From Amoebophrya sp. AT5.2 (taxonomy: Eukaryota > Sar > Dinophyceae > Syndiniales > Amoebophryaceae), in the NCBI GenBank assembly GCA_005223375.1, contig RXOD01005923.1, forward strand, positions 1-11,972: 11,972 nucleotides of DNA. Direction: 5' to 3'. Shown here piece after piece: positions 6,184-10,774 of the stretch (positions are counted from its first letter, which is position 1; every line of letters starts with the position of its first letter). A model generated the notes under the pieces. The model searched no databases and was not told the origin of the DNA. It saw only the letters and a program-made list of their open reading frames with translations. The position numbers and the translations under genes are program-made.

Positions 6184-6285
6184 ATGTCTGCGAAAAGTCA
6201 ACGACTGCTAGCCGATCGCTTCGGCCTTTGTTTTCGTGCTCTCCTGGGTCTTTGGCCCGGCGTTTTCCTGGTTTAATCTTCAGGG

Positions 6286-7349
6286 ATGCCGCGGCTTCGG
6301 CGTTGGGAAAAGCAGACCGCACAGCGGTACATCTCATGCTGCCAAACATGCGAGAAAGTCGAGCTCAAGTGGGAGAATGTCGACGAGATCACAGCAGTCG
6401 CGTCGCGTAAAATGATGGACACGGCCCAGAAAAAGTTCACGAAGGCCTGCACGCGCGGCAAGATATACATCGACAACCACGGATTAGAGACCCAAATAAG
6501 GTGCGCACTTCACAACTAAGGAAAAAGCTTCTGCATTTTTTATTGACCTCCCCATTCCAGCCCAATCGTTCGAGCGGGAGGCTCCGCCGCCGTCGTCGGT
6601 GGGAGCTTTGCCAGAGGTCACCCGCGCTCGGTCTGCGGCGGGTGGGAAGCTTTTCTGACCTCGTGCTGGGAGCCCATCCAATCCCGCCGGGAGGGGCATA
6701 CTAGGCACCCCCATTGAGGCCAGATTCTAATGCGGGGAGCGGTCCAGGAGAGTCCCAAAAGGCGGCGGTTCGTGAGGGGGGGCGCCGATCCCCCCGAAAG
6801 ACCTCCCCGGCAGTTGCTGCCAATCCTCGGAACCCGGGCGAGTAGCCCCGCGAAAGTCTATTGCGTTCGTCTTGCATCTGCATGGCTGTAGGGGCCGCGG
6901 GCCAGAGTTGACCTGCCAGAAGTTTTTTCATTTCTTTCAAAGTGCGCACTTTTGGGTCTCTAAACGGAAGACGGGCGCGGAGGGTTGCGCCCGCACTTCG
7001 CCAAAGAGTGAGCGACTTTGTCCATAAGGGCTCACGGTCCGGGCGCCGCTTGCCCTTTTATGGGGTCAAGGTTTTGGGCATGCACATAATGGCCAACGCG
7101 CTGCTGTGCAAACAATGGACAGACCGGCAATATCGCTGGGTGGTGGGCGGGAGGTATCCCGCTTTGATGCAGAAGAAGAAGAAGCTGCAGACACAGGAAC
7201 AGCGGGACACCTTTACCGAGGTGGTGCGACGGCTGCGCGCGAAGTTTAACTATAACATCCGGGATCCGCTCCAGCGCGCGTTTTTCTGGAGCTTCTACGT
7301 ACCGAGCGCCGTGCTTTGCGTCCAAAAGAAAGATCCCGCGAACAGCTGA
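6286..7349 (+). CDS. Unrecognised basic protein, about 192 aa, interrupted by a TIR element
   Basis: Part one (6286-6483, 66 codons) runs from ATG through a Cys cluster CCQTC (residues 18-22) to KIYIDNHG. Part two resumes at 6969 and ends with stop at 7347-7349; it is rich in Lys, Arg and aromatics (for example FYGVKVLGMHIMANALL and FFWSFYVPSAVLC). The parts are in different frames and are joined exactly if the inserted element plus one copy of its 5-bp target duplication (6484-6968) is removed. A GT-AG alternative, donor 6501 and acceptor 6970, also keeps frame and would add six residues from the left repeat. The product is unknown; the basic charge would suit an organellar or ribosome-associated protein, which is only a guess. 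A 30-codon ATG frame at 6184-6276, in the same frame, stops 9 bases upstream and could be a uORF or part of an upstream exon. Confidence 0.6.
6479..6968. repeat. Target-site duplication ACGGA flanking the element
   Basis: ACGGA occurs at 6479-6483 directly before the left terminal repeat and at 6964-6968 directly after the right one. Both copies fall on the same codon position of the host gene (CAC GGA, and AAC GGA), so loss of the element plus one copy leaves a continuous frame. Confidence 0.8.
6484..6963. mobile_element. 480-bp TIR element with 5-bp target duplication (introner/MITE-like)
   Basis: The left end TTAGAGACCCAAA...GTGCGCACTT (6484-6510) is the inverse of the right end AAGTGCGCACTTTTGGGTCTCTAA (ending 6963), apart from a few extra bases in the left arm. 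The outer 13 bases are a perfect inverted match. The element is flanked by the direct repeat ACGGA at 6479-6483 and 6964-6968. It has no coding capacity, so if mobile it is non-autonomous. It lies inside a coding frame that continues only when it is removed. The left arm carries an AG|GTGCGC donor (6501), and the right arm's CTAA followed by the flank CGGAAG could serve as branch site and acceptor (6970). Confidence 0.85.
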
Positions 7350-8725: not shown

Positions 8726-9799
8726 CATCGTGGCTCTTTCTAAGAGGTAGTGGTAGTGGAGCAGAGGTAGAAGTGGTAGGAGGAGGAGGTGGCGAGAAGG
8801 GGGGTGTCGGCGGAGAAAGCGGTGAGGTGAAAGAAGAGAATGGGGCGAAAGTGGACTTCTCTTCGGGATCGAAAGCGGACGAGTACGGCGTGGCCCCCGG
8901 GCAGGTGGGATCGAATTCGAAATCGAACTTGAACTCAACAGCGGCGGCCGCGACGAACAAGAACGGGCTCGGGCAACTCTTGTACGTGGAAGCCAAGAAA
9001 ATGATTCCCGGCGGCACCCAGCTCCTGTCGAAGCGGCCGGAAATGTTTTTGCCAGACCAGTGGCCGGCCTACTACCAACACGCGAGCGGAATTGAAGTTT
9101 CGACGCTGGACGGAATTCGCCTTCAAGATTTCTCCCTCATGGGCGTGGGGGCCTGTATTCTGGGGTACTATCTAAGTTGTACTTGCTATTACTTCTTCTA
9201 CACTTAGCTATAACTTCACAACAATCAGATGTAGATACGCAGACGAGGACGTGAACCGCGAGATGCACAAGGACGTGCACCTCGCGGTTCACGTCCTTGT
9301 GCACCTCGCGGCTCACGTCCTCGGGGGAGGGTATCAGGGAGCCGGTTTTGGGGTGGGGTATCGGGGGGCCAGTTTTGGAATAGGGTATCGGCGGAGTGGT
9401 GTCGGGGTAGGGTATCAGAAGAGTGGTCATGGTCTCGGGATAGGGTATTGGGGGAGTGGTTTCGGGGGAGGGTATTGGGGAATCGGTCTTGGCATTTGTG
9501 TGTTGATGTTTTGGCTCTTGCTCCGCCGCGGTCCGTTTTTGGGCACCGAGGCTCTTGCTCCGCCGCTGCCTTTATATAAACTGATATATGTATTTCACAA
9601 TCGAAAGAAATCTGTTCTAAATAGCTTCATCGAATCGAATGAAATCACATTTCACCATATGTAGATACGCGGACGAGGACGTGAACCGCGAGGTGCACAA
9701 GGCGGTGGACCGCGGAAACATGTGCACGCTGAACTGCCCCTCCGAGGTCGAGCTCACCAAGCTATTGCTCGAACTCCACCCCTGGGCCGGGATGTGCCG
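8680..9799 (+). CDS. Class-III PLP aminotransferase (glutamate-1-semialdehyde aminomutase-like), N-terminal part, two exons
   Basis: Exon 1 ends at 9164 (CTGG|GTACTATC), exon 2 is 9665-9799, and the GT-AG intron between them keeps phase (GG+A, Gly). After a hydrophobic stretch (about 8680-8745) and a Gly/Glu/Ser-rich linker comes the family start: AKKMIPGGTQLLSKRPEMF, a DG motif (LDGIRLQDF), MGVGACILGY, then across the splice YADEDVNREVHKAV and NCPSEVELTKLLLELHPWAGM. This parallels the HemL order IPGG, DGxxYxDY, ILGHAHPxV, ExELAELI. Family members transfer or shift amino groups using PLP on a lysine; that lysine and most of the cofactor pocket lie in exons not seen here. The frame is open only from 8614 and lacks ATG until 9001, so the 5' end is also missing. 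No next exon with the expected R(Y/F)xxxGxEA motif was found up to 11972, so the gene is truncated, or its third intron is long. Confidence 0.75.
9235..9322 (+). repeat. Half-copy of exon 2 with inverted copy (33-bp stem)
   Basis: Bases 9235-9272 match the start of exon 2 (9665-9702) with two differences, and the preceding ATGTAG acceptor is also duplicated. The copy then turns back: 9245-9277 and 9290-9322 form a 33-bp inverted repeat with two mismatches and a 12-base loop. The loop is itself antisense exon sequence, so the inverted side holds nearly two antisense units of the 24-base DVNREVHK segment. Confidence 0.85.
9330..9497 (+). repeat. 27-bp minisatellite, about six units
   Basis: Units start with GGTAT at 9330, 9357, 9384, 9411 (33 bp, a 6-bp insertion), 9444 and 9471. 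The consensus is GGTATYRGGGRRYSGKTTTYGGGRTRG-like. All insertions are multiples of three, so + strand translation gives repeated GYxGxGFGx units, but it lies inside the predicted intron. G-run density on the + strand is high. Confidence 0.85.
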
Positions 9800-10217
9800 G
9801 TAATTTACTATTTATTTACTAGCCTCCCCCGCTCCGCCCGGGTTTTGCGTTGAATTGGTGCGAAGTGGACACGCTAGTCTACTACAGTAATACGCATTCA
9901 AAGTAGGACGTGCGCATAAAATGAAAGTAAAAAAAGGGGCCCCCGCCCTCATTGCGGTCGGCCTCGGTGCAGTTTATGGCGCCCCCGCCTCCGGCAGTGA
10001 GTATGGTATCGCGGGCGGACGTGCGCCGCCTCCATGGCCTCACTGGGCTCAGATTGGTGCCGGCCGCTTGGTGGGTTCATTGCTTGCGGCTGGGGCGGGG
10101 TTATGATTCTGCCCCACCCCCGCGGCTTGTTGTGGTGCGGCTGGTTCAATGCCGGCCCTTCAGAAGGTCGGGGCGTACCTCGTCGGGTAATAGCGTACCC
10201 CGTCCTCGGCTGCTTCA

Positions 10218-10312
10218 GAGTTCGAGCAATAGCTTTGTGAGCTCGACCCCTCCGAGGTCGAGCTCGCCAAGCTATTGCTCGAACTCCACCCCTGGGCCGG
10301 GATGTGCCGGTA
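10218..10312 (+). repeat. Donor-side copy of exon 2 with inverted copy (about 31-bp stem)
   Basis: Bases 10247-10312 match 9737-9802 in 65 of 66 positions, through the exon end and the first intron bases (CCGGTA), then diverge to CTACC in place of ATTTA. Directly upstream, 10218-10248 is the inverse of 10256-10286, with two mismatches and a 7-base loop. The structure mirrors the acceptor-side hairpin in intron 1. Confidence 0.85.
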
Positions 10313-10711
10313 CTACCACTACCTATCCGATCAGAAGTATCGGTTCTCAAATGCAAAAGGTAATGGTAAGCGCAGTTCGTAGTGGTAGGGAGCGCCGTAG
10401 CTATAGCCCCGTGCTGGTCGCAACGCCGAAATTTTTTTTTTCGGTTCGATGGTTCGGGCAGTAAAAGTATAGGTGCGCAGTAAGCTCTCTCCCATAGGTC
10501 ATGGGAAGACGGTGCAAAAAGACGCGAGTGGTCGCGCGCAGTTCCTGCAGGCGCCAGCGTAGAGCGCAGTAGCACGTCGCGCAATGTGAGCGCGCAGCCG
10601 CAGTCTTTGGTAAGGCCCACGTCCCTCGGTAGCCGTGTGATCATGTGCTGGCTCAACATGTTGAAGCAACACGTGAATCCCTCCCTTGCTCACCTTGATC
10701 TGCGATCACGC

Positions 10712-10774
10712 GAACTGCCCCTCCGAGGTCGAGCTCACAAAGCTAACATTGCCGGTAATTTACTATTTATTTAT
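10712..10774 (+). repeat. Second donor-side remnant of exon 2 with internal deletion
   Basis: 10712-10745 matches 9731-9764 with one difference; then, after a few bases, 10751-10773 matches 9796-9818, covering the exon end and the intron start GTAATTTACTATTTATTTA. The 31 bases between are missing. The single difference (ACAAAG for ACCAAG) is shared with the inverted arm at 10218-10247, so the two remnants share a history. Retention of intron sequence means it arose from DNA, not from a spliced transcript. Confidence 0.8.

Follow-up and report, generated by a model that had tools for sequence, protein, structure and literature searches.

An introner-like family of putative non-autonomous DNA transposons in Amoebophrya sp. 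AT5.2

The closest described counterparts of the element analysed here are the introners of Amoebophrya A25. In the excerpted text of Farhat et al. 2021 (PMC7789003), these are repeat families with inverted ends of 8–20 nt and direct repeats of 3–5 nt at the exon borders, which are non-canonical; a hairpin formed by pairing of the ends is predicted. The inverted-repeat motifs begin with TTA followed by two purines and end in a conserved G, and the non-canonical introns have a mean length of 120 nt. Mostly canonical introns are described, in excerpts of PMC7789003 and PMC12005148, for AT5 and a Karlodinium strain. Introners have been characterized as DNA transposons by Roy et al. 2023, as cited in an excerpt of PMC11453091, and by Gozashti et al. 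2022 (PMC9860276), in whose excerpted account they carry a target-site duplication and terminal inverted repeats, recruit splice sites in varied ways, most commonly give rise to length-neutral insertions in exons and are allowed for in either orientation.

The window, positions 1–11,972 of contig RXOD01005923.1 of the Amoebophrya sp. AT5.2 assembly, contains an element of comparable anatomy inside a protein-coding gene. Judged from its sequence, it is probably a DNA transposon of the non-autonomous type that serves as a non-canonical intron, like the introners of Amoebophrya A25.

The element and its host gene

The element has the features of a MITE, namely inverted ends, a target duplication of fixed length, a short length, multiple copies and no recognised coding domain (Table 1). 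A first-pass annotation of the window had described a 480-bp element with inverted ends and an ACGGA duplication, all of which were recovered. The terminal repeats, whose first bases are TTAGA, are complementary at 13/13 bp, and the complementarity extends imperfectly further inwards (36 nt pair, 78%). A G directly after CCCAAA is present in the family consensus and absent from the window copy. Five of the open frames in the element gave no match in Pfam at E ≤ 0.1, and no Rfam family reached its gathering score anywhere in the window. The predicted RNA fold of the region is a single long hairpin with the ends paired and the exon borders adjacent to each other (z −3.1; 0 of 100 shuffles equally stable).

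Table 1. Features of the element and its host gene in the window, expected transcript junctions, and examples of tight hairpins at other loci
Feature	Coordinates	Strand	Basis or remark
Host gene, left coding exon; starts at ATG and includes the left ACGGA as its final 5 bases	6286..6483	+	Open frame; resembles the paralogue between residue 39 and the junction
Target-site duplication ACGGA, left copy	6479..6483	+	
Putative introner/MITE, no recognised coding capacity	6484..6963	+	480 bp; ends, duplication, family
Left terminal inverted repeat TTAGAGACCCAAA	6484..6496	+	
Right terminal inverted repeat	6951..6963	-	Partner of left repeat in predicted RNA fold
Target-site duplication ACGGA, right copy	6964..6968	+	
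Host gene, right coding exon, through stop codon	6969..7349	+	Open frame; paralogue similarity
Alternative GT-AG intron, disfavoured	6501..6970	+	In phase; retains a further 15 nt (LETQI)
Expected junction, length-neutral removal			CAACCACGGA directly joined to AGACGGGCGC
Expected junction, GT-AG route			AAATAAG joined to ACGGGCGC
Tight hairpin, L041	3828-3900		
Tight hairpin, L034	1948-2014		
Tight hairpin, L049	2291-2353		

Taking out 485 nt joins the two coding exons into one frame of 192 aa, in agreement with the earlier proposal that loss of the element plus one ACGGA restores the reading frame. Because ACGGA is duplicated, all cuts from 6479–6963 through 6484–6968 yield an identical product. 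The host gene is evidently real, since the same genome holds an insertion-free paralogue; once the element and one ACGGA are taken out, the two proteins align across the junction with no gap there. This empty-site homologue, the absence of which had been named beforehand as telling against an intron-like mobile element, lies at C2690 (L061), has an uninterrupted frame of 185 aa and shares 33% identity over 151 aa with the restored host protein; the only gap near the junction is of a single residue, five residues before it. A second, more distant paralogue at C806 (L062) contains two internal TGA codons. The restored 192-aa protein had no relative at E ≤ 10 among the candidates of a large protein search and no Pfam domain.

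In the proposed course of events, a non-autonomous inverted-repeat DNA transposon would have entered an exon of this gene, which is known only from this genome, and duplicated 5 bp of its target. Pairing between the ends of the element in the transcript would then place the exon borders next to each other, and removal of the element with one copy of the duplication would give back the original length of the message. The non-GT-AG borders would be set by the geometry of the element and its duplication, as reported for Amoebophrya introner elements, and the gene would apparently survive the insertion because the cell cuts the element exactly out of the message. Transcription, removal at the RNA level, an exact cut within ACGGA, the machinery and a transposase-driven spread are parts of this scheme that we infer.

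Two further observations concern the surroundings of the gene. A pyrimidine-rich stretch at 6260–6282, noted by eye, ends in CAG just upstream of the host ATG and may be an acceptor for trans-splicing or of an intron. Exon-like pieces at 9226–9323, 9656–9802, 10218–10312 and 10707–10745 are repeated in sense and antisense in neighbouring stretches, partly as hairpins.

A repeat family with copies in conserved genes

A DNA search of the 50.7-Mb assembly (2759 contigs; the window is G000:C2127) returned 30 rows, five of which were second pieces of listed copies, placing the family at 25 sites including the window and bearing out its supposed multi-copy status. Exact 5-bp duplications were found at 14 of the 25 places, with 4/5 matches at three (L012, L014 and L026) and a 3/5 match at one (L009); as a duplication of at least 4/5 was one criterion in choosing the ends of copies, duplications are favoured in degenerate ones. 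Three places were not delimited (L019, L020 and L024) and four were cut by contig ends (L011, L015, L018 and L021). The duplicated target sequence varies between places. When the assembly was searched for the 13-bp end with one mismatch allowed, 62 matches turned up, compared with 21 for the reversed control; they brought in a divergent full copy (L041) as well as several fragments or relatives whose interiors differ. Among the 62 matches listed (at most one mismatch), no likely end pair more than ~0.7 kb apart, as expected of a long partner, was seen.

A scan for arms starting with TTA, matching at 11/14 positions and bordered by an exact 5-bp duplication was applied to 207,494 bp from 53 sources. 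It recovered 12 elements including that of the window, a number that is not a genome rate because most of the 207 kb was chosen for holding family copies. None was found in four shifted-duplication controls or in five first-order Markov resamplings, controls that bear on the strict set only, and the other 63 arm starts gave one hit each in seven starts. A looser scan (9/16) yielded 15 elements, against 0–2 in eight shifted controls.

The window element is 60–88% identical to the other 17 aligned copies (n = 18), the closest pair among the 18 being 95% identical, and the consensus is 456 long. The suggestion that the intron is of recent birth is not supported, because the nearest aligned copy is 88% identical. 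The element lies on the same strand as the gene in six cases and on the opposite strand in five of the 11 strand-assigned genes, strands having been assigned by homology for the window, L005, L026 and L041 and by open frames for the other seven; given the symmetrical ends, both orientations would be allowed.

Several features of the copies stand apart from these counts. At L008, L016 and L026, and by eye at L022 and L023, the element carries in its interior an imperfect sense or antisense copy of the exon that flanks it; such copies reach E < 0.01 in 3 of 21 elements, none matches the flank of another copy, and they are perhaps filler from repair. Elements of a second type, whose ends resemble TTAGRGGTTGAAAA, occupy L008 881–1256 and L041 3451–3781, with detected similarity between the two limited to ~44 nt at one end. 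Ends resembling TTAGAGACCC occur at L032, L036 and L044, around interiors with no detectable similarity to the window element, and also at L038, L042 and L050. The 207,494 bp scanned for arms further contain 22 tight hairpins (~50–80 nt), against 0 in one Markov resampling; that listed for L041 lies within the coding frame of a channel gene.

Support for exact removal comes from homology at five junctions, spread over four genes, together with an additional K+ channel intron, and not from frames alone; in an open-frame test without homology, the exact frame was best in 10 of 23 copies where ~7.7 were expected, which is near chance. By comparison with known proteins, exact removal gives a continuous conserved product in a K+ channel, an HCN/CNG-like channel and a GH3 beta-glucosidase. 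At L026, the element lies in a voltage-gated K+ channel gene, identified by Pfam and homology, and the joined protein (FWW/AVTTMTTVGYGD, the slash marking the junction) aligns with Kv3.1 and Kv1.3 and is ungapped at this point. Its duplication copies are not identical (GCGAT/GCGGT), and their use to fix the cut was dropped: offsets 0–3 give V and offsets 4–5 give I, a mild change. A further intron of this gene, 310 nt long and with the direct repeat TCGGT, joins GILS to VALPTTV; the ends typical of the family are absent from it, and none of its six offsets gives GT-AG.

The HCN/CNG-like channel gene at L041 contains two elements, one of the window family and the other with different ends (TTAGGGGTTGAAAA), and taking out both leaves a continuous C-linker and cyclic-nucleotide-binding domain. 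The first junction falls within a variable stretch with gaps nearby, and the second (GDFI/IREG) is tight. The duplication copies of the second element differ (TCATC/GCATC): cutting one or more bases into the duplication yields PGDFII, similar to PGDYII of HCN4, and cutting at its start yields PGDCII. In the GH3 beta-glucosidase gene at L005, each of the two alignments inspected runs through the junction, the first with a gap immediately to its left and the second with a gap farther upstream; many further hits start at or beside the junction. An Aurora-like kinase copy (L036) was not counted, its similarity being confined to the right of the junction and its duplication not clean, and an assignment of L002 to cytochrome b561, suggested by its sequence, was dropped as unsupported by Pfam or PDB.

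Splice borders and alternative explanations

The six length-neutral cuts of the window element have the borders AC-AA, CG-AA, GG-AC, GA-CG, AT-GG and TT-GA, with GT-AG absent from all of them. In a tentative model, to which we attach limited credence, the splice borders would be dictated by transposon geometry: the ends would pair and cutting would occur ~1 nt beyond the right repeat and at the corresponding position in the left duplication, regardless of the orientation of the element and of the donor dinucleotide, so that with a duplicated target starting with G the last A of the element and this G would form the acceptor AG. G is the first base of the right duplication in 9 of the 14 copies assigned to genes and occupies the mirror position in 3 of the 14 (P 0.004 versus background, 0.07 by sign test, both post hoc), in a set that includes both L008 and both L041 elements and in which nine of the 14 strands were assigned by open frames or one-sided similarity. 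The bias is no more than suggestive of a cut one base into the duplication; the window duplication starts with A. The outer arms showed no clear within-copy covariation (mean 2.50 versus 2.69 mismatches), so that pairing-driven removal is unsupported by this test, and arm covariation was dropped as a sign of selection for the hairpin.

For the window, a conventional spliceosomal GT-AG intron at 6501–6970, with its donor in the left repeat, its acceptor in the flank and a protein gaining LETQI, appears unlikely. The dinucleotides proposed in the first-pass annotation are present and in phase, but as a route, with its branch-like CTAA, it is disfavoured: its product scores 194 against the C2690 paralogue and requires a four-residue gap, whereas that of exact removal scores 208. 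Across the family, 10 of the 14 copies assigned to genes, among them the window and the two L041 elements, have at least one in-phase GT-AG pair within the scanned ranges; the acceptor of a length-neutral pair in L002 lies 23 nt inside the exon, and two copies with the duplications GGTCG and GGTTG would, unconfirmed by homology, be exact GT-AG introns at offset 1. Against this, no in-phase pair was present in the scanned ranges of the K+ channel, GH3, L036 and L008 second-type copies, every in-phase pair in the homology-supported copies would alter the length of the protein, and the K+ channel pore is unlikely to bear such a change.

Assembly-wide markers were also searched for. The dinoflagellate spliced leader has 18 exact matches and 50 within two mismatches, with 0 for the reversed control. 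U6 is present at two loci (~106 bits), and U1, U2, U4 and U5 were not found in the assembly; as U2, U4 and U5 were not found either, an argument from loss of U1 was rejected and the assembly permits no inference about the spliceosome.

It is similarly improbable that a MITE simply disrupted the gene, leaving an unspliced pseudogene, the other outcome first envisaged. The host gene has paralogues and one copy could therefore be dispensable, and the open-frame test is weak; yet the flanking frames are both intact across 192 codons, and the relatives at L026 and L041, which have diverged to 60% and 71% identity with the window element, lie in conserved channel genes with intact coding sequence to the left and right of the junction. 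Excision of ciliate internal eliminated sequences is an exact loss that retains one direct-repeat copy, an outcome that the exact loss considered here would match. Such removal at the DNA level in some cells or stages is nevertheless very hard to credit, the elements being present in the assembly and published Amoebophrya elements of this anatomy being RNA-seq-supported introns in the excerpted text of PMC7789003.

Comparison with known introners

The reading of the element as an introner holds, with its inverted ends, 5-bp duplication, multi-copy family, empty-site paralogue and relatives in conserved genes, as does the earlier pointer to Amoebophrya introners; the same anatomy is described for A25. 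The window element represents a new family of a kind already known, the Amoebophrya-type introners; among the titles and abstract openings listed in full-text searches on introners, Amoebophrya, and Syndiniales introns or non-canonical splicing, none describes this family. It adds another genome with introners of this type and a clean set of cases, made up of the paralogue with its empty site, the two channel genes and the gene for a glycosidase, where the protein to be expected limits the cut to a few bases. Recognition of non-GT-AG introners thereby becomes directly testable at named junctions, with both orientations of the element included.

Euglenid nonconventional introns, as excerpted from PMC6221363, are alike in their variable borders and in a structure joining the ends, and belong to a different lineage. 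With the introners of Gozashti et al. 2022 (PMC9860276) the family shares a target-site duplication, terminal inverted repeats, length-neutral insertion in exons and occurrence in either orientation. The splice sites of the examples in that excerpted account lie in the element and/or come from the duplication or flank, whereas a within-duplication cut would be GT-AG in only 2 of 14 gene-assigned copies here, both unconfirmed by homology. Compared with the A25 introners of the excerpted text (PMC7789003), the element is long, at 480 bp (consensus 456) against a mean of 120 nt, and its splicing is deduced from sequence. The likeness to A25 extends to inverted ends of 13 bp, within the 8–20 nt range, a 5-bp ACGGA repeat at the exon border, within 3–5 nt, repetition in the genome (25 places), ends starting with TTAGA, which fits TTA plus two purines, and a predicted end-pairing hairpin in both.
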